A stretch of 64,000 bases of DNA from assembly GCF_000328705.1 (NCBI RefSeq), contig NC_019673.1, positions 4,464,001 through 4,528,000 on the forward strand. Direction: 5' to 3'. This document shows, piece by piece, positions 50,400 to 64,000 of the stretch. Origin of the DNA: Saccharothrix espanaensis DSM 44229. Lineage in GTDB: Bacteria > Actinomycetota > Actinomycetes > Mycobacteriales > Pseudonocardiaceae. Numbering within the stretch: the stretch's first letter is position 1; each line of letters begins with the position of its first letter. The notes beneath the pieces were generated by a model that was given only the letters and a program-made list of their open reading frames with translations, ran no database searches and was not told the origin of the DNA. A program made the position numbers and the translations under genes.

Positions 50400-50509
50400 C
50401 CGCCAAGACTGCCCCGCGCGAATCCCGGCCGCCAACGCATTTCGGCGAGACCATGCGGCATCCACACCACGTGGACCCCGGAACAGACGCCGAACCCGAG
50501 AGGACAGCC

Positions 50510-51670
50510 ATGGACGACCTGCGGCCCGACATCCCGCTCGCCACGGTGCCCGACGAGCTGATCGTCGACCTGCGCGAGATCGACCTCGTGGAGGCCGCCC
50601 TCACCGCGCTGCACCTCGACTCGCTGCGGGTGGCCGAGTTGGCGGTGTTCGACCTCGCCCGGCTGCGGCTGTGGCACCGGTCCCAGCAGGCCGGCGGCGA
50701 GCCGGTACCGGTGACCGACGTCGACCCGCTGCTGGCGGAGCTGCGCCGGCTGTTCGCGGCGGAGTGCGGCGGCTGGAACCCCGTGCTGGGCAAGAACCGG
50801 TTCGTCAGCAGCCAGTTCGGCGCCTACCCGCAGACCCAGTCGATGGCAGGGGAGTTCGAGCCGGAGCCCGCCGACCGGCCGGACCCGGTGCCCGAGGCGC
50901 GACCGGACGGCGGCGCGGGCGTGCGGGTGGGCGTGCTCGACACCCGGCTCTACCGCCACCCCGACCTGGCCGGGCACTACGAGACCCCGGACGCCGGGAC
51001 CGGCTTCGACCAGCACGACGCCGACCCGATCCCGTGGGAGGACGGGCACGCCGCGTTCGTCACCGGTCTGATCGCCGCCCACGCGCCCAAGGCCGAGATC
51101 GTCGTGCGGGACGTGCTGGACTCCGACGGCCGGGCCACCGCGTGGGACACCGTGGCGGCGATGGCCCGGTTCCGCAAGGACGGCATCCACATCCTCAACC
51201 TCGCGCTGGGCTGCCGCGCGCACCACGGCCCGCCGCTGGTGGTGCAGCGGGCGATCGAGCGGCTCACCCCGGACATGCTGATCGTGGCGGCGGCCGGCAA
51301 CCACGGGCAGGTCGACGGCCTCTGGCACGACATCACCCGGCGCTCGGCGACGTGGCCGGCGGCGTTGCCGGGCGTGGTCGCCGTCGGCGGTCGCACGGCC
51401 GACGACGCGCTCGCGCCGTACAGCCCGCTACTGCCGTGGGTGACGTGCACGGCACCGGGCAACGCGGTCAGCACCTACCTGGACGGGCGGGTGCGGCGGC
51501 GGCACGACTTGGCGGACTTCCACGGCTACGCGAGCTGGAAGGGCACCTCGATCGCCACCTCCGTGGTGAGCGGGATGGTCGCGGCCCGGACCAGGCCCGG
51601 CGAGGTGTCCGCGGCGCAGGCGTTGGCCGCGCTGCTCGCGGAGGCAACGGTGGTCCGCCCGGCCGGCTGA
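50510..51670 (+). CDS. intracellular S8 (subtilisin-like) peptidase
   Basis: 386 residues without signal peptide. The first about 135 residues are a helical extension (VDLREIDLVEAALTALHLDS). Then the subtilase domain with a complete triad: Asp144 in VGVLDTRLYRHPD, His180 in DGHAAFVTGLIAAHAP and Ser347 in GTSIATSVVSG, plus oxyanion Asn in AAAGNHGQ. ATG 50510 has gagaggacagcc in front. Divergent CHAT/subtilase pairs like this have been seen in actinobacteria, and I infer one regulated proteolytic system in which one protease may activate the other. Confidence 0.92.
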   Translation: MDDLRPDIPLATVPDELIVDLREIDLVEAALTALHLDSLRVAELAVFDLARLRLWHRSQQAGGEPVPVTDVDPLLAELRRLFAAECGGWNPVLGKNRFVSSQFGAYPQTQSMAGEFEPEPADRPDPVPEARPDGGAGVRVGVLDTRLYRHPDLAGHYETPDAGTGFDQHDADPIPWEDGHAAFVTGLIAAHAPKAEIVVRDVLDSDGRATAWDTVAAMARFRKDGIHILNLALGCRAHHGPPLVVQRAIERLTPDMLIVAAAGNHGQVDGLWHDITRRSATWPAALPGVVAVGGRTADDALAPYSPLLPWVTCTAPGNAVSTYLDGRVRRRHDLADFHGYASWKGTSIATSVVSGMVAARTRPGEVSAAQALAALLAEATVVRPAG

Positions 51671-51693
51671 GGTCGTTCTGCTAGACCAGTGGT

Positions 51694-52116
51694 GTGGATG
51701 CACGGGTGTGGCGGGCGGTGGCGGGCGGGTGCACGGTGGCGGCGCTGGTGGTGCCGTGGGCGTCGGTGGGGCAGGTGCCCATTCGGTTGGTGCACCTGCC
51801 GTGGTGGCCGGTCTACGTCGGCCTGGCGGTCGTTATGCACGTGGTCGTGGTGCGGTGGCCGAGGGCGGTGGCAGGCGGCCTCGTCGCCTGCGCCGCCTCG
51901 GCGTCGGCCGCGCTGGTCGTGTTGTCCGGCCACCCGCACGCGCGCCCGCTGCCCGAGGGCTCGGTGAGTTCGCTGCTGTTCAGCCGGCCGGGGGTCGGGT
52001 GGATGTTCGCCGTGGCGGCGGCGATCGTCACCGCCTGGTCACTGCTGCGCTCCGCGCGCCACCCGCGCGGAGTGGACCCGCAAGCGCCGTCGGAGGACGT
52101 GGACTTCCCGGTCTGA
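51694..52116 (+). CDS. small membrane protein of unknown function
   Basis: 140 residues with about four hydrophobic helices (e.g. YVGLAVVMHVVVVRW and FAVAAAIVTAWSLL) and a short polar C-terminus. No domain recognised. GTG 51694; TAGACC lies 6 nt upstream, so the message may be leaderless. It follows the subtilase by 23 bp in the same direction and might be its membrane partner, but this is speculation. Confidence 0.6.
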   Translation: MDARVWRAVAGGCTVAALVVPWASVGQVPIRLVHLPWWPVYVGLAVVMHVVVVRWPRAVAGGLVACAASASAALVVLSGHPHARPLPEGSVSSLLFSRPGVGWMFAVAAAIVTAWSLLRSARHPRGVDPQAPSEDVDFPV

Positions 52117-52184
52117 CCCGACGTGCCCGGGACGGGTGGAGGTGCCTGCCCATGGAAACGCCTGGAGGTGCTTCTACCCGCAAC

Positions 52185-52190
52185 TACAGT
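52185..52190 (+). promoter_or_regulatory. -10 element TACAGT upstream of the pirin gene
   Basis: TACAGT would start transcription near 52197, giving either a near-leaderless GTG 52203 or a 27-nt leader for ATG 52224. Confidence 0.45.
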
Positions 52191-52223
52191 GGGTGGGGTG
52201 ACGTGCCGAGCGGGGACGACCCG

Positions 52224-53204
52224 ATGAGCAACACCGAGACCGACCCCGCCGAGGTGGTGTGCGCCGCCACGGCCGGTGCCGCGGCGCGGGTCGAGGTCCT
52301 CGAACCCCGGGACGTGCCGCTGGGCGGCCCGCGTGCGATGACCGTCCGCCGCACGCTGCCGCAGCGCGGCCGGTCCATGGTCGGCGCCTGGTGCTTCGCC
52401 GACCACTACGGCCCCGACGACGTGTCGGCGACCGGTGGGATGGACGTCGCGCCGCACCCGCACACCGGCTTGCAGACGGTGAGCTGGCTGTTCAGCGGCG
52501 AGATCGAGCACCGCGACAGCCTGGGCGTGCACGCGGTCGTGCGGCCGGGCGAGCTGAACCTGATGACCGGCGGGCACGGGATCTGCCACTCCGAGGTGTC
52601 GCTGCCCGGGACGACCGTGCTGCACGGCGTGCAGCTGTGGGTCGCCCTGCCCGACGCCCACCGCGACGCGCCCCGCGACTTCCAGCACCACCGCCCCGAG
52701 CCGATCGCCCTGCCCGGCGCGACCGTCCGGGTGTTCCTCGGAACGCTGGCCGGCCACACCTCGCCCGTGCGCACGTTCACGCCGTTGCTCGGCGCGGAAC
52801 TGGTCCTGGAGCCGGGGGTGGGCGTCGAACTGGCGGTCGACCCGCGCCACGAGCACGGCGTGCTGGTCGACCAGGGCGAGGTCGAGCTGTCGGGCGTCCG
52901 GGTGCGCCGCGCCGAACTCGGTTGCACCGCCCCGGGCGCCGGGACGCTGACCCTGGCGAACCCCGGCCCGCAACCGGCCCGCGCGATGTTGCTGGGCGGT
53001 GAGCCGTTCGGCGAGGAGATCGTGATGTGGTGGAACTTCGTCGCCCGCGACCACGACGAGATCGCCCACCACCGCGCGGAGTGGCAGGCCGGCACCGAGC
53101 GCTTCGGCCAGGTCACCGGCTACCCTGGCGCCCGTCTCCCGGCCCCGCCCCTGCCGACCGGTCGGCTGCGTCCCCGGAGCAACCCGCCGCTGCCCCCACG
53201 CTGA
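52224..53204 (+). CDS. pirin-family protein
   Basis: 326 residues, bicupin pirin fold. Metal-site motifs in the N-terminal cupin: DVAPHPHTGLQTVSWLFSGE, then GIEHRDS-type segment EIEHRDSLGVH, and NLMTGGHGICHSE. C-terminal cupin ends in MLLGGEPFGEEIVMWWNFV. Pirins are iron-binding proteins linked to quercetin oxidation or redox sensing; the exact role varies. ATG 52224 with a cgggga-like ribosome site is chosen; GTG 52203 is a near-leaderless alternative. Single-gene unit. Confidence 0.93.
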   Translation: MSNTETDPAEVVCAATAGAAARVEVLEPRDVPLGGPRAMTVRRTLPQRGRSMVGAWCFADHYGPDDVSATGGMDVAPHPHTGLQTVSWLFSGEIEHRDSLGVHAVVRPGELNLMTGGHGICHSEVSLPGTTVLHGVQLWVALPDAHRDAPRDFQHHRPEPIALPGATVRVFLGTLAGHTSPVRTFTPLLGAELVLEPGVGVELAVDPRHEHGVLVDQGEVELSGVRVRRAELGCTAPGAGTLTLANPGPQPARAMLLGGEPFGEEIVMWWNFVARDHDEIAHHRAEWQAGTERFGQVTGYPGARLPAPPLPTGRLRPRSNPPLPPR

Positions 53205-53246
53205 CGGCCGGTGCCGCGCCGGCCGCCGGGGGATCGGCGACCGCCG

Positions 53247-54851
53247 CTACCCGGCGGCGGGGCCGAACGCGGTCAGGAACCGGTCGCGGAAGGACTCCAT
53301 CGGCCACGTCGGGGCGTGCGGGCCGGGTCGGAGGCCGGCGTCCCACCGCCAGTCGGCGATCCGGTCGAGGACCGCCGGGTCCTTCGCCACGACGCCGATC
53401 GGCACGTCCCGGCCCGCGCCGCCGCCGGTCACCACCTGGGCCGGCTGGTGGTCACCGAGGAACACCACCACGAGATCGTCGTCGCGGTGGTTCTCCACGT
53501 ACGACACGAGGGTGCCCAGCGAGTACTCGACCGACCGGCGGTAGTCGGCGCGCACGTCCGCCGGGTCGCGGGTGAAGATCGACTCCGGCGCTCCGGTGCC
53601 CGAGGGCATCGAGCCGTACACCGAGCCGTCGCCCAGGTCCGCCCAGTCGACCGGCGAGGGCACCGGCGTCCACGGGGCGTGGCTGCCGACCAGGGCGATG
53701 GTGGCCATCACCGGGTCCGGCGACCCGCCCTCGGCGCGGTCGAACGCGGCGAGGGTGAACTGGTCGGGCGTGGTGGCGTAGCCGAACCTCGGGCCCCGGT
53801 AGCCGAGGTCGCCGGCCGCCATGATCCGCCGGTAGCCGAAGAACTCGCCTTCCGGCCACGCCTGCGTGATCCCCGGCAGCACTCCGACGGTCCGCCAACC
53901 GGCCCGCCCGAACGCCGCGTTGAGCGTCACCCGGTCGCTGCCCACCAGGTTCCGGTACCGCTGCTGGTTGTCGATCCGCAGCCCGGACAACAGGGTCGCC
54001 TGCGCCAGCCAACTGCCGCCGCCCGCCGTGGGCGAGGTCAGGAAACCGCTGCGCGCGGAGAACCCGGCCGCCGCCAACCGGCGCGTGCCGGCGTCGAGCA
54101 CGCCGGCCACCGACAGCTCCGGATCCTCGACGGCCGAGCGCCCGTAGCTCTCCACGAACACCACCACGACCTCCTTGCCCCGCAACGCGGTCAGCAGCCG
54201 GTCGCCCGGCACGTCCCGGAACGCGTCCAGCGCGGACTCGGCGGCGAACGCCTCCTGGTCGCCCAACCCGTCACGCACCTGCCGCGCGTGGTCGTAGACG
54301 AACTCGGCGGCACTGGTCGAGGTGAGCGGGACGCCCGTCCCGGCCAGCGTGATCCACACCGCGGCCGACACCAGCACGACCCGGGTGGTGACCGCCCGCC
54401 GCCGGTCGGCGAGCCGGGCCAGCCGCACCACCGAGCACGCCACCAGCGTGATCAGCCCGAGCGCCACCAGCACCGCCCCGACCACCACGCCGACCGCGCC
54501 CGCCGGGCCGCCGGTCACCGCCACGAAGTCCACCGCCGGCCCGAGCAGCGGCCAGTCCAGCACCAGGTCGAACGGCCGGTACAGCACCACGTCGAACCCG
54601 ATGTCGAGGACCTTCACCACGGCCAGCAGTCCCAGGAACACCCCACCGGCCCACGCCGCGACCCACCGCCACCGCACCGGCAGCACGAGCACCAGCAGCA
54701 CGCCCAGCAGCGCCTCGACCGGGACCCGCAGGAACGCCGACCAGGTGAACCTCTCCAGGTCCGCCGGCGCGAGCAGGACGACCGCCACCAGCAGCACGGC
54801 GCACCCGGTGGCCGTCCACCACCCGACCCGCCGCCACGTGCCACCCGTCAT
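53247..54851 (-). CDS. LtaS-type membrane sulfatase/phosphoglycerol transferase
   Basis: 534 residues. Five membrane helices in the first about 180, then an extracytoplasmic sulfatase-fold domain with VVVFVESYGRSAVEDP. The nucleophile region SPTAGGGSWLAQATLL has Thr in the LtaS position, followed by LVGSHAPWTPVP and VVFLGDHQPAQVV carrying metal ligands. LtaS-like enzymes transfer phosphoglycerol or related groups to cell-wall or lipid glycans. ATG 54849-54851 with GAGGACGGGCG upstream in sense. Neighbours do not fix the substrate; modification of a glycan from the 41968-45610 genes is possible. Confidence 0.9.
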   Translation of the reverse strand: MTGGTWRRVGWWTATGCAVLLVAVVLLAPADLERFTWSAFLRVPVEALLGVLLVLVLPVRWRWVAAWAGGVFLGLLAVVKVLDIGFDVVLYRPFDLVLDWPLLGPAVDFVAVTGGPAGAVGVVVGAVLVALGLITLVACSVVRLARLADRRRAVTTRVVLVSAAVWITLAGTGVPLTSTSAAEFVYDHARQVRDGLGDQEAFAAESALDAFRDVPGDRLLTALRGKEVVVVFVESYGRSAVEDPELSVAGVLDAGTRRLAAAGFSARSGFLTSPTAGGGSWLAQATLLSGLRIDNQQRYRNLVGSDRVTLNAAFGRAGWRTVGVLPGITQAWPEGEFFGYRRIMAAGDLGYRGPRFGYATTPDQFTLAAFDRAEGGSPDPVMATIALVGSHAPWTPVPSPVDWADLGDGSVYGSMPSGTGAPESIFTRDPADVRADYRRSVEYSLGTLVSYVENHRDDDLVVVFLGDHQPAQVVTGGGAGRDVPIGVVAKDPAVLDRIADWRWDAGLRPGPHAPTWPMESFRDRFLTAFGPAAG

Positions 54852-54916
54852 CGCCCGTCCTCCAGTGTCGCCACGACAGGCAAACGCGTGGACGGCCCGT
54901 CCGGTTCAGGGGTCGG

Positions 54917-54922
54917 TACGGT
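54917..54922 (+). promoter_or_regulatory. -10 element TACGGT of the leaderless RibD-C gene
   Basis: TACGGT ends 6 nt before GTG 54929, and no ribosome site is present. The identical hexamer sits before the creatininase gene at 57750, suggesting co-regulation of the two pathway genes. Confidence 0.6.
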
Positions 54923-54928
54923 GAACCG

Positions 54929-55612
54929 GTGATTCGACCGCACGTGCTGCTCAGCGTCGCCGTGAGCGTCGACGGCTACATAGACGACCGGGGCGCGGAG
55001 CGCTTCCCGCTGTCCAACGCCGAGGACTTCGACCACGTGGACCGCCTGCGCGCCGAGTCCGACGCGATCCTGGTCGGCGCGGAGACGATCCGCCGCGACA
55101 ACCCGCGCCTGCTGGTCAACGACCCCGGCCGGCGTGCCGCGCGGGTCGCGGCCGGCCGGCCGGAGTACCCGTTGAAGGTCACCGTCACGCGGTCCGGGGA
55201 CCTCGCGCCGGACCTGAACTTCTGGCACCACGGCGGCGAGAAGCGGGTCTACACCACCGATTCCGGCTTCCCGGTCGCGTCGGTGGCGCTGGCCGGCCTC
55301 GCGTCGGTCGCCGCGCTCGGCCCGGCGGTCGACTTCGCCGCCCTGCTCGACGACCTGGGCGCGCTCGGGATCGGGCGGCTGATGGTGGAGGGCGGCGGGC
55401 ACGTGCACACCGCGTTCCTCGCCGCCGGCCTGGCCGACGAGATCCGGATGGCGGTCGCGCCGATGCTGATCGGCCAGGCCGCCGCGCCGAGGTTCGTGCG
55501 CCCGGCGGCGTTCCCCGGCGGCCCGGCCCGGCGGTTCCACCTCGACGGCGTCGAGGTCCTGGGCGACGTCGCGGTGCTGCGCTACTTCCCGAAGCGGTCC
55601 GGCGCGAGCTGA
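54929..55612 (+). CDS. RibD C-terminal-type reductase (ArfC-like)
   Basis: 227 residues, dihydrofolate-reductase-like fold of the RibD-C family. Opening LLSVAVSVDGYIDDRG, GAETIRRDNPRLL for NADPH binding, and the signature MVEGGGHVHTAF are all good. Stand-alone members in archaea and fungi reduce 2,5-diamino-6-ribosylaminopyrimidinone phosphate to the ribityl form. Here it sits near an unusual GTP cyclohydrolase II and a creatininase-family hydrolase, so I infer the same reduction in the orphan pterin-like pathway. Leaderless GTG 54929. 3' end overlaps the convergent DoxX gene by 31 bp. Confidence 0.9.
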   Translation: MIRPHVLLSVAVSVDGYIDDRGAERFPLSNAEDFDHVDRLRAESDAILVGAETIRRDNPRLLVNDPGRRAARVAAGRPEYPLKVTVTRSGDLAPDLNFWHHGGEKRVYTTDSGFPVASVALAGLASVAALGPAVDFAALLDDLGALGIGRLMVEGGGHVHTAFLAAGLADEIRMAVAPMLIGQAAAPRFVRPAAFPGGPARRFHLDGVEVLGDVAVLRYFPKRSGAS

Positions 55613-56001
55613 GCGAGCAGGGCGCGGATCGTGTCGCGGCGGAGGAACGCGATCACCGCCGCGGCGGCCAGCAGGATCAGCGGCAGCGTGGCGTCGCCCT
55701 TGGCGAGCAGGAACAACTCGGTGCCGACCGCGCCCGCCATCACCCCGACCAGGCCGAGTGCGGCGAGCCCGCACAGCCGGGGCACCAGCAGCCCCAGCGC
55801 GCCCGCGATCTCCAACGTCCCGGTGAGGTAGCGCAGCCACTGCCCGAACCCGATCTCCTCGAACTTCTGCACGAAGTCGTCACCGAACAGCAGGTACCCG
55901 CTGTAGACGAAGTAGGCGGCGAGCGCTACCTGCGCCACCCACAACGCGATGTCGCCGACGCGCGCGGTCGTGGACCGGGCGGGCGCGGTCTGCTCAGACA
56001 T
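55582..56001 (-). CDS. DoxX-family membrane protein
   Basis: 139 residues, four membrane helices in the DoxX pattern (ALAAYFVYSGYLLFG, LTGTLEIAGALGLLVP, LVGVMAGAVGTEL). DoxX-like proteins are linked to quinone or thiosulfate redox and oxidative-stress complexes; the role here is unknown. ATG 55999-56001 lies 8 bp inside the end of the CDP-alcohol phosphotransferase gene, so both are made from one message. Membership in the pterin-like locus is by position only. Confidence 0.88.
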   Translation of the reverse strand: MSEQTAPARSTTARVGDIALWVAQVALAAYFVYSGYLLFGDDFVQKFEEIGFGQWLRYLTGTLEIAGALGLLVPRLCGLAALGLVGVMAGAVGTELFLLAKGDATLPLILLAAAAVIAFLRRDTIRALLAQLAPDRFGK

Positions 56002-56743
56002 GGGAGTACTCCTTCACCACAACGGCCTCAGCGGCCACTCGATCCCTGGTCCGCCAGAGCCCGGCCACGTCCCGGCCGAACGACCACCCCAGCGCGGCCA
56101 GCGCGAGCTCCACCAGGACGGTCGCGAACGGCACCGCGCCGGACGCGGCGACGACCAGCAGCACCCCCTGCACAGCCGCGACGGCCTTGCGCGCAAAGCT
56201 CGGCGGCAGCTCCCCGCGCAACCACGGCGCCACCCACGACACCGCGACGAACACGTACCGCATCAACCCGATCGCCAGCACCCACAGCCCGGACGACAGC
56301 GCCACGTGGACGCTGAGCACGAGGATCAGGAACGCGTCGACCTCCATGTCGAACCGCGCCCCCATCGGCGAGGCGGTGCCGGTGCGGCGGGCCACCCGAC
56401 CGTCCACGAAGTCCAGCGACAGCGCCACGGCGGCGAACACCACCAGCAGCCCGACCGGGACGTCCTCGCCCATCCGATCGGCCACCAGCGCGGCCACCGC
56501 GCCCACCAGGACGCCGCGGGCGAGCGTGACCCGGTCGGCCGGGCCGGGGGAGCGCACCCCGGCGCGCACCATCGCCGCGGCCAGCAGGACCCAGGTCGCC
56601 AGGCCGTAGGCGGTGCCCGCCAGCCAGCCCGGCGGTCCGAGCCCGACGGTGCCGCCGAGCACGCCCAGCAGCAGGACCTGCGCGCCCGCCCAGACGGCGT
56701 GTTCCGGCACGGCCGGCGCGGCGGTGTGCTGAAGTGTGATCAT
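55994..56743 (-). CDS. CDP-alcohol phosphatidyltransferase
   Basis: 249 residues, about six to eight helices. The complete CDP-OH-P signature DG(x2)AR(x8)G(x3)D(x3)D is present: DFVDGRVARRTG through MGARFDMEVD. The enzyme joins a CDP-activated alcohol to a hydroxyl acceptor at the membrane. In this locus it might attach the product, or a polyol derived from it, to a lipid or phosphodiester. ATG 56741-56743. Divergent from the dehydrogenase with a 36-bp gap, so the promoters overlap. Confidence 0.93.
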   Translation of the reverse strand: MITLQHTAAPAVPEHAVWAGAQVLLLGVLGGTVGLGPPGWLAGTAYGLATWVLLAAAMVRAGVRSPGPADRVTLARGVLVGAVAALVADRMGEDVPVGLLVVFAAVALSLDFVDGRVARRTGTASPMGARFDMEVDAFLILVLSVHVALSSGLWVLAIGLMRYVFVAVSWVAPWLRGELPPSFARKAVAAVQGVLLVVAASGAVPFATVLVELALAALGWSFGRDVAGLWRTRDRVAAEAVVVKEYSHV

Positions 56744-56779
56744 CGGTGCCCCTCATGACCCGTTTTCGGAGGTTGCCGG

Positions 56780-57760
56780 ATGACACGCGCCGCACGGGCA
56801 CTGTGGTTCACCTCGGCCGGGAAATGTTCGATCCGGTCCGGGCCGCTGCCCGATCCAGGGCCGGGCGAGGTGCTGGTGCGCACCCTGCACACGGCGGTCA
56901 GCCGGGGCACCGAGACCCTGGTCCTGAACGGCTCGGTGCCCGCCAACCAGCACTCCGCGATGCGCGCGCCGTTCCAGGAGGGCGGGTTCCCGTTCCCGGT
57001 GAAGTACGGGTACCTCAACGTCGGGGTGGTCGAGCAGGGCCCGGCCGCGCTGCTCGGCCGCACGGTGTTCTGCCTGTACCCGCACCAGACCCGGTACGTC
57101 GTCCCGGACCACGCCGTCACGCCCGTCCCCGACGCGGTCCCGGCACAGCGCGCCGTGCTCGCCGGCACGGTGGAGACCGCCGTGAACGCCCTGTGGGACG
57201 CCCGGCCGATGGTCGGCGACCGGATCGCCGTGGTCGGCGGCGGCATGGTCGGCTGCTCGGTGGCGGCGCTGCTGGCGCGGCTGCCCGGCGCACGGGTCCA
57301 GCTGGTCGACGTCGACCCGGCCCGCCGCACGACCGCCGCCGCGCTCGGCGTGGACTTCGCGACGCCCGAGGAGGCCACCGGCGGGCTGGACCTGGTGGTG
57401 CACGCCAGCGCGTCGGAGGCGGGCCTGGAGACGTCGCTGGGCCTGCTCCGGCCGGAGGGGGTGGTGCTGGAGCTGAGCTGGTACGGCGCGCGGCGGGTCG
57501 GCGTCGCGCTGGGCGAGCACTTCCACTCCCGCCGGCTGTCCGTGCGGGCCAGCCAGGTCGGCGTGGTCGGCCGCCCGGACCGCACCCACGCCGAACGCCT
57601 CGCGCTCGCCCTGGACCTGCTCGCCGACCCGGCGTTCGACGCGCTGATCACCGGCGCGAGCCCGTTCGACGACCTGCCGGCCGTGCTGCCCCGGCTGGCG
57701 TCGGGCGACCTCGCCGCGCTGTGCCACCGGATTGACTACGGTCACGCCCATGACCGGTGA
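56780..57760 (+). CDS. MDR-superfamily alcohol dehydrogenase-like protein
   Basis: 326 residues of the medium-chain dehydrogenase superfamily: GroES-like N-terminus (HTAVSRGTETLVLNGSVP) and a Rossmann domain with RIAVVGGGMVGCSVAALLAR. The usual catalytic-zinc Cys-His pair is not evident (TAVSRGTE replaces the CxxD region), placing it near the bacteriochlorophyllide-dehydrogenase-like branch found in tailoring pathways. ATG 56780 has ggaggttgcc before it. It overlaps the creatininase gene start by 11 bp. Substrate is presumably the pathway intermediate. Confidence 0.85.
   Translation: MTRAARALWFTSAGKCSIRSGPLPDPGPGEVLVRTLHTAVSRGTETLVLNGSVPANQHSAMRAPFQEGGFPFPVKYGYLNVGVVEQGPAALLGRTVFCLYPHQTRYVVPDHAVTPVPDAVPAQRAVLAGTVETAVNALWDARPMVGDRIAVVGGGMVGCSVAALLARLPGARVQLVDVDPARRTTAAALGVDFATPEEATGGLDLVVHASASEAGLETSLGLLRPEGVVLELSWYGARRVGVALGEHFHSRRLSVRASQVGVVGRPDRTHAERLALALDLLADPAFDALITGASPFDDLPAVLPRLASGDLAALCHRIDYGHAHDR
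57737..57742 (+). promoter_or_regulatory. -10 element TACGGT of the creatininase gene
   Basis: Lies inside the end of the dehydrogenase gene, 7 nt before ATG 57750. Same hexamer and nearly the same spacing as before the RibD-C gene. Confidence 0.5.
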
Positions 57761-58439
57761 CCCGCTGCCCCGCGCCACGACCGCCGACGTCCGGGAGCGC
57801 GGCGCGCGGGTCGCCGTGCTGCCGGTGGGCAGCTTCGAGCAGCACGGCCCGCACCTGCCGCTGGTCACCGACACCGTGGTGGCCTGCGCCATCGCCGAGC
57901 GGATCGCCGCCGAGCACCCGGTGCTGCTGTTGCCGCCGATCACCATCTCCTGCTCGCACGAGCACGCCGCGTGGCCCGGCACGGTGAGCATCTCGGCCCG
58001 CACCCTGTACGCCGTGGTCACCGACATCGCCGAGTCGCTGCGCCGGTCCGGCGTGCCGAAGCTGGTGCTGGTCAACGCGCACGGCGGCAACTACGTGCTG
58101 TCGAACGTGGTGCAGGAGGCCGAGGGCCTGGCGCTGTTCCCGGAGCGCTCCGACTGGCACGCCGCCCGCGCCGCCGCCGGCCTGGCGACCTCCGGGCAGA
58201 GCGACATGCACGCCGGGGAGCTGGAGACCTCGATCCTGCTGCACGTCCGCCCGGACCTGGTCGGTCCGGACCGGGTCGACCACCTGGCCGAGGACCGCCC
58301 GCACCTGCTGACCCACGGCCTGCACCGCTACTCCGGGTCCGGCGTGGTGGGCCGGCCGTCGCTGGCGTCAGCCGACAAGGGCCGGCACCTGCTGGACAGC
58401 CTGGCCGGCTCGTTCGCGGGCCACCTGGCGGCGCTGTGA
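57750..58439 (+). CDS. creatininase-family amidohydrolase, candidate FAPy deformylase (ArfB-like)
   Basis: 229 residues. Metal-site motifs of the creatininase superfamily are complete: FEQHGPHLPLVTDT, NAHGGNYVLSNV and MHAGELETSI. The archaeal member ArfB deformylates the formylaminopyrimidine (FAPy) made from GTP, the step before RibD-C-type reduction. The GTP cyclohydrolase II at 61615 is of a variant type that may stop at FAPy, and a RibD-C reductase is nearby, so the same role is inferred. Mycofactocin peptidase MftE is another family member, so alternatives exist. ATG 57750 over TTG 57732 because of the leaderless promoter. Confidence 0.9.
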   Translation: MTGDPLPRATTADVRERGARVAVLPVGSFEQHGPHLPLVTDTVVACAIAERIAAEHPVLLLPPITISCSHEHAAWPGTVSISARTLYAVVTDIAESLRRSGVPKLVLVNAHGGNYVLSNVVQEAEGLALFPERSDWHAARAAAGLATSGQSDMHAGELETSILLHVRPDLVGPDRVDHLAEDRPHLLTHGLHRYSGSGVVGRPSLASADKGRHLLDSLAGSFAGHLAAL

Positions 58440-59336
58440 GCCGGGAACCAGGGTGAGCACCCCCGGCAGCGCGGCGACCAGCGCCAGCACCCCGTAGACC
58501 ACGGCGGTGGTCACGCCCTGCGCCGCGCCCAGCCCGGCCGCCCCGAACGCCACCGCCAGGAACGCCTCGCGCGGCCCGAACCCGCCGATGTTCACCGGCA
58601 CCGCCATCACCAGCAGCGCGAGCACGACCAGCGGGACCAGTCGGCCCAGCGGCGCGGTCGAGCCGGCCGCCCGCGCGGCGACCACGAACAGCGCGACGTG
58701 CCCGGCCACCGCCACCGCGGACAGAGCCGCGACCCGGGGCAGCGCGTACCGGGTGAGCAGCGCGCGGCGCGCGTCGGAGAACGTCCGGCCCAGCACCGCG
58801 CGGACCTTCGGCACCCGGCTCGCGACCACAGTGCCGGCCACCGCGCCGACCACCGCGCCGACCACCAGGACCGCAACGGCGGACACCACGACACCGGGCC
58901 GGACGTCGACCGCCACCGGCCGCGCGACCAGCACCGCGACCGCGACCAGCACCAGCACGACCTGCCCGGCGAACCGCTCGAACACCACCGCCCGCACGCC
59001 CCGGCCGACATCGCCGGACTGCTGGCCGTGGGAGACCGCGCGGTGCACGTCGCCGAGCACGCCGGCGGGCAGCACCGCGTTGAGCAGCAGGCTGCGGTAG
59101 TAGTCGGAGACGGCGCTGCCGAGCGTGAGCGGCAGGCCGAGCCCGCGCGCCACCACGCACCACCGCCACGCGCCGCACACCGTGGTCAGCAGCCCGATCC
59201 CGAGGGCCGCGACCACCGACCACGGGTCGACCGCCCGCAGCCCGTCGAGGAACGCCGCCGACCCCAGCCGCCACCCCAGCACCACCAGGATGCCGACCGC
59301 CGCCACCAGCCGCAGCCACGGCCACACCCGCGTCAC
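58368..59336 (-). CDS. UPF0104/LPG-synthase-TM-type membrane protein (flippase-like)
   Basis: 322 residues, eight or so helices in the lysylphosphatidylglycerol-synthase TM (UPF0104) family: YYRSLLLNAVLPAGVLGDVH, VVFERFAGQVVLVLVAVAVL and PVNIGGFGPREAFLAVAFG are the conserved segments. These act as lipid flippases or as membrane partners of glycosyltransferases. GTG 59334-59336. Last of four minus-strand genes starting with the PTPS homologue, after a 22-bp gap. Its 3' end overlaps the convergent creatininase gene by 72 bp, unusually long but both frames are clearly real. Confidence 0.9.
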   Translation of the reverse strand: MTRVWPWLRLVAAVGILVVLGWRLGSAAFLDGLRAVDPWSVVAALGIGLLTTVCGAWRWCVVARGLGLPLTLGSAVSDYYRSLLLNAVLPAGVLGDVHRAVSHGQQSGDVGRGVRAVVFERFAGQVVLVLVAVAVLVARPVAVDVRPGVVVSAVAVLVVGAVVGAVAGTVVASRVPKVRAVLGRTFSDARRALLTRYALPRVAALSAVAVAGHVALFVVAARAAGSTAPLGRLVPLVVLALLVMAVPVNIGGFGPREAFLAVAFGAAGLGAAQGVTTAVVYGVLALVAALPGVLTLVPGSQRRQVARERAGQAVQQVPALVG

Positions 59337-59358
59337 GACGACCCCTCCGGCCGGGTCG

Positions 59359-60135
59359 TCACGGCACCGCCAGGAGATCGGTGTGGTGCACCACGGTCCG
59401 CAGCCCGCCGGCGAGCCTGCGCCGCAGGTAGTCGGGCGCGTCGGCGGCCAGCGCCGGGTCCTGCTCGACGGCCGCGCCGACCCAGCCGCGCAGCCACTCG
59501 GCGGTCAGCGCGGCCTGGTCGGGGCCCAGCCGCCACGGGCTCGGCCTGGTCTCGACCCGCGCGCCGAGCGCCGTGAACGCCTCCTCGGCGGCCGCCGCCG
59601 CACCGGGCCCGAGCAGGCCGTCCCGGCGCTGGTGGTCGTTGAACGCGTCGCGCAGCCGCGCGTCGAGCGGCTCGGCCGGGTCGAACTCGACGCGACCGGT
59701 CACGGTGAGGGTCAGCAGAGCGGGCACACCCGCTCCTACGCACGCCGCCGCCAACCCGTTCACCTGCTCCCGGGTCAGCACGTCGAGCAGCGCCGACGCC
59801 GTCACCAGCGACGCGCCCGCCAGGTCGGCGGCCCGCAACGCGCCGAGGTCGCCCGCCACCGTCCGCGCCGTCACGCCCGGCCCGGTCACCGTCGCACCCG
59901 CCACGGCCAGCAGCCGGGGGTCCCGGTCGTGCAGCACCCAGTGCTGCGCGCCGGCCAGCCGCGCGGAGAGCCACCGCCCCATCGATCCCGTGCCACACCC
60001 CAGATCACGGACGAGGACCGGGTTCCGGTTCAGCACGATCTCGCGGGCCCGGTCCGCCAGTTCGGCGCTGCGCGCGGCGGCGTCCGCCGGTTCGCGCAGG
60101 GCCAGCCACTCCGGGGCGAAACCAGGGGAGGTCAT
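59359..60135 (-). CDS. SAM-dependent methyltransferase
   Basis: 258 residues, class I Rossmann methyltransferase: SAM motif VRDLGCGTGSMGRWLSARL, a second acidic segment HDRDPRLLAVA, and LVTASALLDVLTREQVNGL. Soluble. ATG 60133-60135 overlaps the GT4 stop. Family members in this locus type are uncharacterised as far as I know; methylation of the pyrimidine/pterin or its sugar is a guess. Confidence 0.87.
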   Translation of the reverse strand: MTSPGFAPEWLALREPADAAARSAELADRAREIVLNRNPVLVRDLGCGTGSMGRWLSARLAGAQHWVLHDRDPRLLAVAGATVTGPGVTARTVAGDLGALRAADLAGASLVTASALLDVLTREQVNGLAAACVGAGVPALLTLTVTGRVEFDPAEPLDARLRDAFNDHQRRDGLLGPGAAAAAEEAFTALGARVETRPSPWRLGPDQAALTAEWLRGWVGAAVEQDPALAADAPDYLRRRLAGGLRTVVHHTDLLAVP

Positions 60136-61127
60136 GTCCGCAGACTAGCCAGCACCGCGGCCAGCCCGAGGACCGTTTCCTCCCACGTGGACAGCTCGCG
60201 CCGGCGGGCGCGGGCGGCGTCGCGCAGCCCGGCGCGCGTCCGGGCGGAGTCGAACCAGCGGCGCAGCGCGTCCGCCAGCGAGGCCGCGTCACCGGGCAGC
60301 AGCCACCCGCCGTCGCCCAAGGCGTCCGGGACTGCGCTGGCCAGCACCGGGATCCCGCGCGCCAGCGCCTCGGCCACCGCCATCCCGTAGGTCTCGGCGC
60401 GGGACGGCAGCACGAACAGGTCGGCCGCCGCGTAGGCCGCGTCGAGGTCCGCCCCGAGCAGCGGCCCGACCAGGTCGATCCGCTCCGCCAGACCGTGCCG
60501 GGCGATCGCGGCGCGCACCGACCGGGCGTGCCCGGGGTCCGCCGGCCCGGCGCAGACGCAGGTCCACGGCCGGTCGGCGACCCGGGCCAAGGCCTCGACC
60601 AGCACGTCGTGGCCCTTGCGCGGGGTGATCGACGCGACGCAGAGCAAACTCGACACCCCGTCGCCGCCGGGGGCGAGCGGCGCGGGGTCGACGCCGGGCG
60701 CGACCACGTGCACGCGGCCCAGCCCGTGGTGGGCGGCCAGGCGTTCGCCCGCCGCCGCGCCGGTCGCCACGACCGCGTGCACGGCGCGCAGGCAGGCCCG
60801 CTCGGCGGCGTCCAGTTCGGCCGCCACCGCCGGGTCCAACCCGGTCTCCTCGGCCAGTGGCAGGTGCACCAGCACGGCCAGCCGCAGCCGGTCGGCGTGC
60901 GGTGTGACGACCTCGGGCACCCCGCACGCCACCAGCCCGTCGAGCAGCACCGGCGCGCCGTCCGGCAGGCCGGCCAACGCCCGGTGCAGCGCCGCGCGGG
61001 CGGCGTCGTCCGGGCGTGGCCAGGCACCGGCGACGACGACCGGCCGCAGCCCGCCGCCGGCCCGCCGGTTGTAGGTGTTGCCGCCGCTGGGGGTCCGGCT
61101 GTCCGGGACGACGAAGTGCCCGGTCAC
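60132..61127 (-). CDS. GT4-family glycosyltransferase
   Basis: 331 residues, GT-B fold. C-terminal donor domain has [20 protein letters not shown] and the EX7E motif in [21 protein letters not shown]-terminal domain starts [21 protein letters not shown] 61125-61127 overlaps the PTPS-homologue stop (GTGA). It likely glycosylates the pathway product from a nucleotide-sugar donor. The frame continues open far upstream into the PTPS gene and beyond, but that is an artefact of GC content. Confidence 0.9.
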
Positions 61128-61534
61128 AGGTCCCGTTCGTAGCTCGCCCAGGCCACGTGCGACTCGTGCAGCGAGACCTCGATGCCGGACAGGCCGTGCG
61201 CGCCCACGCCGAGCGCGCCCGCGCGCACCCGGTCCGCCAGCCGGTCGGCGATGTGCTTGGCCAGGAACTCGGTCGAGGTGTTGATCCCGGCGAACTCGGG
61301 TACCTCGTCCAGGTTCCGGTAGTTCAGGTCGGCCAGCACCGCGCGCAACTCCTGGGTGGCCAGTCCGATGTCGACTACGATGTTGTCCTGGTCCAGTTCG
61401 ACCCGTTTGAACCGGGCGTCCACGACGAACGTTGCTCCATGCAGGCGTTGTGCCGGACCGAAGACCTCGCCGCTGAAGCTGTGCGCGACCATCACGTGGT
61501 CGCGGACGGTGATGCTGAACAGGGTGACCTCCAC
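61124..61534 (-). CDS. PTPS (6-pyruvoyltetrahydropterin synthase) homologue with degenerate metal site (SCO6650-like)
   Basis: 136-residue T-fold protein. Opening [20 protein letters not shown], then [11 protein letters not shown] and later [19 protein letters not shown] and [11 protein letters not shown]. Active PTPS/QueD enzymes have Cys-x3-HGH with a zinc; here the Cys position is Ala and HGH becomes HGA (His32, Ala34), so zinc binding and catalysis are lost. This matches what I recall of S. coelicolor SCO6650, reported to lack zinc and PTPS activity but keep a pterin-type pocket. GTG 61534 is preferred; TTG 61558 is possible. A -10 candidate lies at 61570-61575. First gene of a four-gene minus-strand operon. 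Confidence 0.92.
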
Positions 61535-61569
61535 GGGGTGAGCGATCCGCCGGTGCAACCTCCGACCCG

Positions 61570-61575
61570 AGCGTA
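61570..61575 (-). promoter_or_regulatory. possible -10 element TACGCT of the PTPS-homologue operon
   Basis: Read on the minus strand, TACGCT would start transcription near 61563, about 29 nt before GTG 61534. It lies in the 80-bp divergent gap to the GTP cyclohydrolase II gene. Confidence 0.4.
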
Positions 61576-61614
61576 GCCAACGCCGGGTCGGGAGTCGGGT
61601 GATGAGGGGGGCGG

Positions 61615-62259
61615 ATGCACGAGCGAGTCTTCGGCGAGGCCGAGGTCGCCGAGTCGGACCTGGTGACGCGGCGGGGCACGTTCCGGGCGGTGGCGTTCCG
61701 GGCGGACGGGCACGAGCACCTGGCGCTGGTGCTCGGCCGGGTCCGGCTGCGGGCGGACGTGCTGGTGCGCGTCCACTCGGAGTGCATGACCGGCGACATC
61801 TTCGGCGCGCTGCGCTGCGAGTGCGGCGAGCAGCTGGACGCCGCGATGGACGCCGTCGTGCGCGAGGGCAGCGGTGTCCTGGTGTACCTGCGCGGCCACG
61901 AGGGCCGGGGCATCGGCCTGGTCGAGAAGGTCCGCACTCACGTCCTGCAGGACGAGCGCGGCTTGGACACGATCGACTCGGCCACCGAACTCGGCCTGCC
62001 GGTCGACGTCCGGGACTACCGGCCGGCGGCGCTGGTGCTGCGGCACCTGCGGGTGCGGTCCGTGCGGCTGCTGTCGAACAACCCGGACAAGATCCAGGCG
62101 TTGGAGGACAACGGCATCCCGGTCACCGCCCGGGTGCCGCTGCTGATGGCGCCCAACGAGCACAACCTCGGCTACCTGACGGCCAAGCGCGACCGCCTCG
62201 GCCACGACCTGCCGCAGGTCGCCGGCCACCAGGACCTGCTGCGCGCCGTCGACGGCTGA
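61615..62259 (+). CDS. ribA: GTP cyclohydrolase II variant (RibA family, probable FAPy-forming)
   Basis: 214 residues, stand-alone RibA. Zinc ligands Cys57, Cys68 and Cys70 are present in [19 protein letters not shown]; the GTP-binding segment [17 protein letters not shown] and [17 protein letters not shown] are normal. The residue matching E. coli Tyr105 (NKIRAYALQD) is His109 ([10 protein letters not shown]). In S. coelicolor SCO6655 I recall Met at this site and a product that keeps the formyl group (FAPy). His suggests the same diverted chemistry. ATG 61615 with gaggggggcgg in front, divergent from the PTPS homologue. Not the housekeeping riboflavin copy, which is normally fused to RibB or in a rib operon. 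Confidence 0.93.
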
Positions 62260-62291
62260 ACCCGCTGACCGCTGAACCCGCTGACCCCGGG

Positions 62292-62310
62292 CCCGCCGAG
62301 GTTCGGCGGG
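62292..62310. terminator. hairpin between ribA variant and atpB
   Basis: cccgccga pairs perfectly with tcggcggg over a 3-nt loop between two convergent genes; likely bidirectional. A repeated gctgaacccgctgacc (62257-62287) precedes it. Confidence 0.7.
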
Positions 62311-62311
62311 T

Positions 62312-63079
62312 TCAGTGGTCAGCGGCGAGCGCGCGCCCGATGTAGTGGGCGCTGAGCGTGGCGAAGATGTAGGCCTGGAGCACCTGGATCAGCGCCTCCA
62401 GCAGGGTGATCGCGATGGCCAGCGCGAAACTGAGCAACGACACCGGTTTCACCAGTGGGCCGGCGTGCAACAGCAGGAATTCGCCGCCGAGCACGAATAC
62501 CACCACCAGCAGGTGTCCGGCGAACATCGCCGCGAACACCCGGATGGCCAGGGTCACCGGGTCGAAGAAGAACTTCAGGATGATCTCGGTCGGGATCAGC
62601 AGGAACCAGAGCACCGGTTTCGGCACGCCCGGGTAGCTGAACTGGTTGCGCAGGTAGCCGCGCAGGCCGTGCCGCCGGATGCCGACCACGTGATAGGTGG
62701 GGAAGACCAGCAGGATGGCCAGCGCGGCCGGGAACCCGATGTGCGCCATGGTCGGGAACTGGATGAGCGGGATGATCCCGAAGATGTTGTTGACCAGCAC
62801 GAACGTGAACAGCGACAGGATGAACGGCACGTACGGCGCGAAGTCCTTGCCGCCGATCTGCTCACGCGCGATGGTGTTGCGGCCGAAGTCGTAGATCGTT
62901 TCGGCGGCGAACTGGAGCCGGTTCGGCACAATCGTCAGCCGGCGCGCGGTGATCAGGAAGAATCCGGCGATGATGAAGGTCGACAGGACGACCAGGATCA
63001 TCGGTTTGGTGACCCACCCGACGATTTCCGGCGGGAACAGGTCCCGGGCTCCGGGTGGGGTGAAGGTGTTGTCGGCCAT
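62312..63079 (-). CDS. atpB: F0F1 ATP synthase subunit a, stand-alone paralogue
   Basis: 255 residues, six helices, clear ATP synthase subunit a. The essential Arg is present in TLAIRVFAAMFAGHLLVVV, though the usual R-L-F-G-N-M is changed to R-V-F-A-A-M. The C-terminal helix has IQVLQAYIFATLSAHYIG with the conserved Gln. Normally atpB is followed by atpE-atpF-atpH; here it ends against a terminator and the convergent ribA variant, and no other F0 gene is in view. ATG 63077-63079. It may be a second copy used under special conditions, or a relocated gene. Confidence 0.92.
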   Translation of the reverse strand: MADNTFTPPGARDLFPPEIVGWVTKPMILVVLSTFIIAGFFLITARRLTIVPNRLQFAAETIYDFGRNTIAREQIGGKDFAPYVPFILSLFTFVLVNNIFGIIPLIQFPTMAHIGFPAALAILLVFPTYHVVGIRRHGLRGYLRNQFSYPGVPKPVLWFLLIPTEIILKFFFDPVTLAIRVFAAMFAGHLLVVVFVLGGEFLLLHAGPLVKPVSLLSFALAIAITLLEALIQVLQAYIFATLSAHYIGRALAADH

Positions 63080-63287
63080 GGGCGCCCCCCGTCCAAGGTC
63101 TTGGTCCGGACTTTACCGGACGGTGATCCGGCGTCCAGGGCCTGCCCGGTGATTTCCCGGTCGGCGGACAAGCCGCCGGAAACGCCCTGGGCACCCCGCC
63201 GCCCGGCCGCCCGGACCGGGTCGTCGCGGGTCGTCGCGGGTGCGGTTCGCCGCCGGGCGGGTGATCCCGCGGCGCTCCCCGGCGTTC

Positions 63288-63293
63288 TAGGGT
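63288..63293 (+). promoter_or_regulatory. -10 element TAGGGT of a leaderless gene
   Basis: TAGGGT ends 7 nt before ATG 63301, with no ribosome site. Fits the leaderless pattern. Confidence 0.55.
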
Positions 63294-63300
63294 TGGCGGC

Positions 63301-64000
63301 ATGGACGCCGACAGGCCGGGCCGGGTTGCCGAGGGGTTCCGGTCGTTCTTCGCCGACGACCGGGTGCCGGAGTCGGTGCTGGAGCTGTTCCACCGGGTCG
63401 CCGCGACCGTGCCCGCGTACCGGAAGTTCTTGGCGGAGCACGGGGTCGACCCGGAGCGCGTGGTCACCCTGGACGACTTCCGCCGGCTGCCGCCGACCGA
63501 CAAGGACAACTACCACCGCCGCTACCCGCTGCCGGAGCTGTGCCGGGACGGCCGGCTCGACGGGTGCGACCTGGTCGCGGTGTCGTCCGGGTCGAGCGGG
63601 CGGCCGACCGCGTGGCCGCGTTCCCTGGTCGACGAACTGGCCATCACCCGCCGGTTCGAGCAGGTGTTCCGCGACGCGTTCCGGGCCCACGAGCGCAGCA
63701 CGCTGGCCGTGGTGTGCTTCCCGCTCGGCACGTGGGTCGGCGGCCTGTTCACGACGGCGTGCGTGCGGCACCTGGCCGCGAAGGGCTACCCGATCACGGC
63801 GGTCGCGCCGGGCAACAACAAGGCCGAGATCCTGCGCGTGCTGCCGGAACTGGCCGGCCACTTCGAGCAGGTGGTGCTCATGGGCTACCCGCCGTTCGTG
63901 AAGGACGTGGTCGACTCGGCGCACTTCGACCCGGCGGGGTTCGACTGGGCGGCGCACGACGTGAAGCTGGTGCTGGCGGGGGAGGTGTTCAGCGAACAGT
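63301..64000 (+). CDS. PaaK-like adenylate-forming enzyme (3' end outside window)
   Basis: 233 residues seen of an expected 420-450. Opening resembles phenylacetate-CoA ligase relatives: LFHRVAATVPAYRKFLAEHG, FRRLPPTDKDNYHRRYPL, and the ATP-binding P-loop-like VAVSSGSSGRPTAWPRS. Later VLMGYPPFVKDVV and VLAGEVFSEQ fit the family. The downstream part with the adenylation A8-type motifs is beyond the window. These enzymes adenylate a carboxylate and often transfer it to CoA or a carrier protein. ATG 63301, leaderless. Could belong to a following gene set not visible here. Confidence 0.88.
   Translation, partial: MDADRPGRVAEGFRSFFADDRVPESVLELFHRVAATVPAYRKFLAEHGVDPERVVTLDDFRRLPPTDKDNYHRRYPLPELCRDGRLDGCDLVAVSSGSSGRPTAWPRSLVDELAITRRFEQVFRDAFRAHERSTLAVVCFPLGTWVGGLFTTACVRHLAAKGYPITAVAPGNNKAEILRVLPELAGHFEQVVLMGYPPFVKDVVDSAHFDPAGFDWAAHDVKLVLAGEVFSEQ

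Follow-up and report, generated by a model that had tools for sequence, protein, structure and literature searches.

A conserved gene cluster of Saccharothrix espanaensis and its relatives combines a GTP cyclohydrolase II variant with a creatininase-family protein and suggests a route from GTP via FAPy

Gene content of the locus

The window, meaning the whole stretch of 64,000 nucleotides analysed here, is part of the genome of Saccharothrix espanaensis DSM 44229 (NC_019673.1, positions 4,464,001 to 4,528,000 of the forward strand) and contains at its positions 53247 to 62259 a real and conserved gene cluster with a variant of GTP cyclohydrolase II (RibA), a creatininase-family amidohydrolase, a RibD-C type reductase and a PTPS-like protein. 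We think it rather probable that this cluster makes a small molecule from GTP via the formylated pyrimidine FAPy, in which the RibA variant, the creatininase and RibD-C would act one after the other, leading to a pterin-type, tailored and lipid-linked product.

A sequence-only reading of the same DNA had described an orphan locus at 54929 to 62259. All reading frames named there are present in the list of open reading frames, and family-model searches gave matching families for RibD_C, the creatininase, the PTPS homologue, the RibA variant, the CDP-alcohol phosphotransferase, the MDR dehydrogenase, the flippase-like protein, the methyltransferase and the GT4 glycosyltransferase. The three proposed pathway genes do lie in separate units and the right end stands, but the left end has to be moved outwards as the LtaS/sulfatase-like gene at 53247-54851 belongs to the cluster too. 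The locus is also not isolated, as the cluster is widespread and its relatives SCO6650 and SCO6655 have already been studied. Its features are as follows:

53247..54851, minus strand: LtaS/sulfatase-like membrane protein (PF00884, 8.4e-9) with an alkaline-phosphatase-superfamily domain, the N-terminal part being hydrophobic by eye
54929..55612, plus strand: RibD-C type reductase, archaeal-like (PF01872, 8e-39); best PDB matches 5xv5/5xux, with 5xv5 first
55582..56001, minus strand: DoxX-like membrane protein (PF13564, 6e-16)
55994..56743, minus strand: CDP-alcohol phosphotransferase (PF01066, 7e-13) with a complete DGxxAR(x8)GxxxDxxxD motif
56780..57760, plus strand: MDR-type dehydrogenase with SRGTE, and with GYL at the usual GHE position
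57750..58439, plus strand: creatininase-family amidohydrolase (PF02633, 1.6e-65), proposed FAPy deformylase
58368..59336, minus strand: LPG-synthase-TM flippase-like membrane protein (PF03706, 6.5e-33)
59359..60135, minus strand: S-adenosylmethionine (SAM)-dependent methyltransferase (PF13649, 2e-7)
60132..61127, minus strand: GT4 glycosyltransferase (PF13692, 7e-27)
61124..61558, minus strand: PTPS-like T-fold protein, SCO6650 orthologue (3d7j, E 3e-65; PF01242, 7e-23)
61615..62259, plus strand: GTP cyclohydrolase II variant, RibA (TIGR00505, 207.6 bits, cut-off 205.85), aligned to E. coli 2bz0
61939..61941, plus strand: His109 codon of the RibA variant, at the position of E. coli Tyr105 in the alignment to 2bz0

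The ATG of the creatininase gene at 57750 results in an 11-base overlap with the dehydrogenase stop, and a longer frame has a TTG start at 57732. The GT4 gene starts with GTG at 61127, overlapping the PTPS stop. The RibA variant is divergent from the PTPS gene, whose true start is probably near 61522 as judged from its relatives.

The Tyr105 position of RibA

GTP cyclohydrolase II is part of textbook riboflavin biochemistry. In the alignment with the E. coli enzyme the window RibA retains the three zinc cysteines and the active-site arginine, and the E. coli motif KIRAY, which ends with Tyr105, is replaced by KVRTH; for the cysteines, the arginine and Tyr105 we assume the roles that they are generally given. 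SCO6655 from Streptomyces coelicolor, reportedly a GTP cyclohydrolase II that releases FAPy, presumably has a methionine at the Tyr105 position. The window protein shows the sequence features of such an SCO6655-type enzyme, with cysteines and arginine intact and the tyrosine missing, and it may release FAPy from GTP with histidine at this position.

Of the 298 genomes from the order, 96 have an orthologue of the PTPS-like protein (E 1e-20 or better). We compared 121 loci, consisting of the window, 40 loci and the best 80 loci, which lean to near relatives, and the removal of one duplicate left 120 distinct loci. As some stretches stop at contig ends, the following gene counts are lower bounds: GT4 118, MDR dehydrogenase 117, flippase 114, methyltransferase 102, CDP-alcohol phosphotransferase 100, RibA 96, creatininase 77, RibD-C 53, LtaS-like 38 (window included) and DoxX 11. 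The in-cluster RibA proteins without the tyrosine have methionine (53), histidine (22) or glutamine (1) instead.

One could regard the window RibA as an ordinary deformylating GTP cyclohydrolase II in which histidine stands in for tyrosine, the cluster just boosting precursor supply. It does score just above the RibA equivalog cut-off and keeps the cysteines and the arginine, in the roles assumed above. However, RibA copies outside the cluster have the tyrosine in 24 of 24 cases read (from 56 matches in 24 genomes 30 were taken as loci, 6 of these being in-cluster), and histidine, methionine and glutamine appear only together with a creatininase, which makes this explanation improbable.

Coupling of the creatininase to the RibA type

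The creatininase gene is present in all 76 loci with a non-Tyr RibA and in none of the 18 loci with a Tyr RibA. From the 24 loci without RibA only one, L166, has it, and this locus lies at a contig end; the two loci with an unreadable RibA have none. Loss of the tyrosine and presence of the creatininase are concordant in all 94 loci with a readable RibA and therefore support a FAPy-releasing RibA that works with a creatininase as deformylase. Pseudonocardia has both states, namely histidine and creatininase in L172 and tyrosine without creatininase in L122 and L154.

For a tree reconstructed from PTPS, MDR dehydrogenase and GT4 the Met loci of Streptomyces were thinned to one in five, and loci without one of the three genes were omitted, including the Tyr loci L063 and L064. 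On this tree the residue class changes twice and the creatininase follows in the same direction both times. The presence of a non-Tyr RibA and that of the creatininase each change seven times, and do so together, with none of 75 loci being discordant after six RibA-less loci near a stretch end, L166 among them, had been dropped. Seven independent pairs are found on the best tree and four on its well-supported branches, where all four agree (sign test p 0.125). The creatininase and RibA genes adjoin in Streptomyces and their joint loss is therefore partly trivial; in window-like loci they are separated by about 3 kb with four genes.

Several findings weigh against a functional partnership of the two proteins. 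The loss of the tyrosine is a single change on the RibA tree, without replication at the level of the gene, and with only two residue-class changes on the backbone tree most of the 76 loci are not independent. L166, which has a creatininase but no RibA, would have been discordant if it had not been dropped as a contig end. The window creatininase reaches 38.6 bits with the ArfB model NF033501, far below the cut-off of 180, and is closest to the MftE model (151.8 bits, cut-off 172). Moreover, none of the 28 creatininase loci read outside the cluster (stretches of 5 to 18 kb each) shows a non-Tyr RibA.

The creatininase might therefore work on another amide of the same pathway, for example in a formylated or cyclic intermediate formed later or in a peptide of the MftE-like type, with the change in RibA being functionally unlinked. 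Its nearest NCBIfam model, the single event on the RibA tree and the close relatives elsewhere, which have an HTH (helix-turn-helix) protein as upstream neighbour in three of three tested cases and no non-Tyr RibA nearby, would agree with this. We nevertheless judge it unlikely, as there is no exception in the 94 loci, the two genes switch jointly seven times, no mycofactocin radical-SAM gene (MftC) over cut-off was found in this genome and the creatininase is the sole gene of its family found there. Membership in MftE itself was rejected, since neither its model cut-off is reached nor an MftC over cut-off was found.

Creatininases with E 1e-45 or better occur in 45 of 298 genomes, and with 28 loci elsewhere the gene is not exclusive to the RibA clusters; in one of these outside loci, L230, a Tyr RibA is encoded at a distance of about 7 kb. 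In a tree with seven outside ones the creatininases of the cluster, represented by 39 of the 77, fall into one clade (support 97/99), and the family was probably recruited. We do not claim an independent re-pairing of creatininase and RibA types, as the approximately unbiased (AU) test keeps a single clade of Met partners (p 0.186). In L222 (8628-11538), L218 and L229 the creatininase relatives are located directly downstream of HTH_31 regulators, and in L222 the gene is followed by three others, for a NUDIX protein, for GTP cyclohydrolase I and for a QueC-like protein (likeness by eye).

Relatives of the cluster in other bacteria and in archaea

In order to take a wider look at the cluster, whose core of MDR dehydrogenase, PTPS, GT4 and methyltransferase also occurs in proteobacteria and haloarchaea, we examined 18 deep actinobacterial loci, all picked by their PTPS match. 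Eleven of them contain the MDR dehydrogenase together with GT4 and/or PTPS, and RibD-C was called in eight of these eleven; the genomes of the other three (L013, L014 and L029) gave RibD-C matches in a frame-level search. PTPS was called in 8 of the 11 loci, with HGHT. In L254 the order is RibA-RibD-C-MDR-PTPS-GT4 and the RibA has the tyrosine. A gene for dihydroneopterin aldolase (FolB; L258, 6274-6645, minus strand) is divergent from one deep actinobacterial version.

The cluster is also present in nine proteobacterial loci, all plasmid records, from Thiodictyon, Methylosinus, four Rhizobium/Allorhizobium, Peteryoungia, Palleronia and Rhodobacteraceae SC52. All nine have the MDR dehydrogenase, PTPS, methyltransferase and RibD-C, six have RibA, in each case with the tyrosine, and none has the creatininase; the CDP-alcohol phosphotransferase and the LtaS-like protein are encoded in six each and the flippase in five. 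A cytochrome b is annotated beside the cluster in Thiodictyon, Rhizobium SL42 and Peteryoungia, and both of the proteins tested match the b561 family, in Rhizobium with PF01292.

Nine haloarchaeal loci have the MDR dehydrogenase in common, which is due to the choice of loci. Six of them have an annotated PTPS and a seventh gives a weak match to it, and genes for the MDR dehydrogenase, PTPS, GT4 and methyltransferase are consecutive in three (one with a small intervening gene). The three histidines are kept in all five full-length haloarchaeal PTPS sequences aligned. The FAPy-forming GTP cyclohydrolase III is encoded directly 5' of the MDR dehydrogenase in four of the nine loci, belonging to two genera (family tested for two): in a pair of Haloarcula species, where PTPS is present too, and in two strains of a single Natrarchaeobaculum species. 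In Haloarcula marismortui a creatininase gene lies about 5 kb from the dehydrogenase gene, too distant to count as firm. The annotation of this species shows no gene in the space from MDR to GT4 (L271, 11006-11408), and a weak PTPS match is located there; the reading frame may be interrupted.

The RibD-C reductase and the 2-amino group

The best NCBIfam model for the RibD-C protein of the window is the archaeal rib_reduct_arch (TIGR01508), with 128.3 bits below the cut-off of 186.45. RibD-C (E 1e-25 or better) is found in 93 of the 96 genomes with PTPS and in 25 of the 202 without it, a co-conservation far beyond chance (Fisher p 2e-49, which takes no account of kinship). That RibD-C always belongs to the cluster had to be rejected, as in 57 of the 77 creatininase-bearing loci, mostly Streptomyces, it is missing from the stretch.

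Only one of the 53 cluster loci with RibD-C, namely L071 itself, has a deaminase of this type, with its gene beside RibD-C; the search used the one seed sequence, so that distant deaminases could escape it. The four RibD-C copies examined outside the cluster (L248-L251, from three Streptomyces-like genomes and one Amycolatopsis-like genome) are all fused to a C-terminal cytidine-deaminase-like domain, and a Tyr-type RibA is found beside two of them (L248 and L249). The usual RibD has the reverse domain order. As the in-cluster RibD-C comes without a deaminase, the 2-amino group is probably retained as in pterins, and a pterin-type skeleton is favoured.

The PTPS-like protein, the dehydrogenase and the tailoring genes

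In the PTPS-like protein of the window two of the three histidines of the zinc motif remain and the third is alanine, which modifies the previous view that the zinc ligands are gone. The positions of the catalytic Cys/Asp/His are occupied by Ala/Asn/Tyr, with the Asn and Tyr positions varying among members; this motif assignment is the one we presume for the family. With an incomplete histidine triad, replaced catalytic residues and only 36.2 bits for TIGR03367 (cut-off 89.25) the protein is not a catalytic PTPS/QueD, and by its orthologous sequence and T-fold family it belongs to the SCO6650 subfamily. An alignment of ten diverse members has 30 invariant columns and therefore speaks for a conserved subfamily and not for a decaying enzyme. 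The histidine motif is retained in the deep actinobacterial and haloarchaeal versions. On a plasmid of Streptomyces anthocyanicus a cluster-type PTPS with an HGA motif (L275, 10001-10426, plus strand) was found, and no further gene of the cluster was detected in the 20 kb read there.

The zinc ligands typical of polyol dehydrogenases are missing from the MDR dehydrogenase (we take GHE to be the usual motif), which argues against a simple enzyme of that kind. In L255 a methyltransferase domain and GT4 form a fusion protein. The version from Actinopolymorpha rutila contains a gene for an Stf0 sulphotransferase (L175, 13464-14210, minus strand), which would suit a product bearing a sugar.

Instead of a pterin the product could be a ribityl-pyrimidine, a lumazine, a flavin or deazaflavin analogue or a deazapurine, with the PTPS-like protein merely binding or condensing. 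The riboflavin-type enzymes RibA and RibD-C, the deaminase gene of L071 and the lost catalytic residues of the window PTPS fit such a product. On the other hand, 52 of the 53 cluster loci with RibD-C have no such deaminase, the annotation of the plasmid clusters viewed shows neither a riboflavin nor a lumazine synthase (no search was aimed at them) and positions 50000-64000 of the window gave no Rfam match, for instance to an FMN riboswitch. We therefore regard such a product as rather doubtful, although less so than a creatininase acting on another amide.

Proposed pathway

For the pathway via FAPy we infer the following reactions and the following order. The RibA variant would open GTP and halt at FAPy because the residue for deformylation is histidine, and the creatininase would take off the formate. 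RibD-C would then reduce the ribosyl to the ribityl moiety with the 2-amino group retained, and the MDR dehydrogenase together with the PTPS-like protein may convert the ribityl compound into a pterin-type compound. On paper, oxidation of the ribityl chain at C2' by the dehydrogenase and ring closure could yield 7,8-dihydroneopterin phosphate with no need for GTP cyclohydrolase I. GT4 would glycosylate and the methyltransferase methylate the compound, and the CDP-alcohol phosphotransferase, flippase-like and LtaS-like proteins may be involved in lipid linkage, movement or modification of the product at the membrane. For the part after the RibD-C step only the tailoring logic is firm, with genes for sugar, methyl and membrane functions in most versions; a glycosylated product appears well motivated from the gene content and a lipid linkage plausible.

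It seems that the first step can be exchanged as a module and has the deformylated diaminopyrimidine as its one output, be it through a complete RibA, through a non-Tyr RibA and a creatininase or through GTP cyclohydrolase III. The archaeal-style FAPy route postulated before receives strong support by comparison from the RibA-creatininase concordance and from the haloarchaeal GTP cyclohydrolase III, but it is archaeal in style only, as the window uses GTP cyclohydrolase II and the ArfB and ArfC cut-offs are missed. The absence of RibD-C from so many creatininase-bearing stretches and the missing zinc ligands of the dehydrogenase count against the route, as do two results from the haloarchaea, where no GTP cyclohydrolase III was seen nearby in five of the nine loci and no PTPS was found beside that of Natrarchaeobaculum.

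If the proposal holds true, one catalytic residue of RibA has been given up and the lost half-reaction has apparently been passed to an unrelated hydrolase. With the rule linking residue and partner, the reaction of a creatininase group that is still uncharacterised can be tested directly, and what was known as an oddity of S. coelicolor turns into a cross-domain pathway that is open to testing and whose first step can be exchanged. As the cluster suggests, its compound would be an unrecognised pterin-like metabolite of common soil bacteria and also of proteobacteria and haloarchaea. Going much further, one may speculate about an ancient pathway of bacteria and archaea that needs no GTP cyclohydrolase I and leads from GTP to a glycosylated pterin serving as a membrane-anchored redox carrier, by GTP cyclohydrolase II or III, RibD-C, re-oxidation at C2' by the MDR dehydrogenase and a lipid link, with an exchanged first-step module and membrane redox partners such as the cytochrome b of the three proteobacterial versions and DoxX in the window; we consider this extended version unlikely.

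Promoter word, repeats and the right flank

TACGGT had been suggested as a promoter word shared by two of the pathway genes, but its eight copies in the window match the 8.47 expected by chance and it was ruled out as a shared signal. The copy at 57737 is located inside the dehydrogenase frame, in its last codons, just 5' of the start of the creatininase gene, which overlaps it. The copy at 54917 stops 6 bases short of the RibD-C start and could serve only a leaderless gene. No sigma-70-type promoter pattern was found in 53000-63400. The same region has many imperfect repeat pairs, viewed as the 20 largest direct families and the 25 longest inverted pairs, which we judged, without a separate control, to be GC-rich background except for 62262-62325. 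This inverted repeat (31-base arms, 84% complementary, 2-base gap) lies between the convergent ends of the genes for the RibA variant and for a second, stand-alone ATP synthase F0 subunit a (62312-63079, minus strand; 62% identity to the other copy of the genome) and could be a two-way terminator. The ATP synthase gene is found in 1 of the 121 loci, the window itself, and is therefore placed outside the cluster.

Comparison with known systems

The closest known system is SCO6650-SCO6655 of S. coelicolor, with a PTPS orthologous to that of the window (PDB 3d7j, E 3e-65). The usual order in Streptomyces, PTPS-GT4-methyltransferase-flippase-creatininase-RibA, fits the SCO numbering; the matching of numbers to genes is our assignment. 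Differences are the histidine in the window RibA instead of the presumed methionine, the RibD-C and LtaS-like genes of the window cluster and the location of its PTPS and MDR genes in different units. SCO6655 is listed as a GTP cyclohydrolase II in the portion of the source available (PMC2853524). By the inferred gene order SCO6652 would be the methyltransferase, and the expression values excerpted from PMC3610822 give for it log2 4.3 and 4.1 in aerial and sporulating mycelium (about 17- to 20-fold) and 0.8 in substrate mycelium, each against the first mycelium.

The proposed chemistry resembles the ArfA/ArfB/ArfC route in FAPy, its deformylation and a reduction before deamination. In contrast, the first enzyme of the window is GTP cyclohydrolase II and not III, which is found only in haloarchaeal relatives of the cluster, and creatininase and RibD-C stay below the ArfB and ArfC model cut-offs. 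By these results the window proteins are not members of ArfA/B/C, and the end product probably differs as well. For BrbF from Sinorhizobium, a creatininase-family FAPy formamidase, the activity has been demonstrated according to the sections available of PMC9478397, and an enzyme of this family can therefore deformylate FAPy in bacteria. BrbF serves riboflavin and its FAPy source is described in the same sections as still to be found; in the window the RibA variant is the proposed source, and the likeness to BrbF is by family only.

SCO6650, SCO6655, BrbF and glycosylated pterins are already known. As far as an incomplete literature search tells, the rule linking RibA residue and creatininase, the His and Gln forms of RibA, the extended gene set and the cross-domain cluster with exchanged first enzyme are new; no published account of this cluster as a pathway was found in this search, which was made without most subscription papers and leaves such an absence unproven. 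Pterins that carry a sugar are well established in bacteria and archaea, among them solfapterin, limipterin, tepidopterin and cyanopterin (named in the part available of PMC3546692). According to the excerpt of a 2026 review (PMC13259868), GTP cyclohydrolase I is used in the synthesis of most biological pterins; the cluster described here has GTP cyclohydrolase II instead, or GTP cyclohydrolase III in some haloarchaea.

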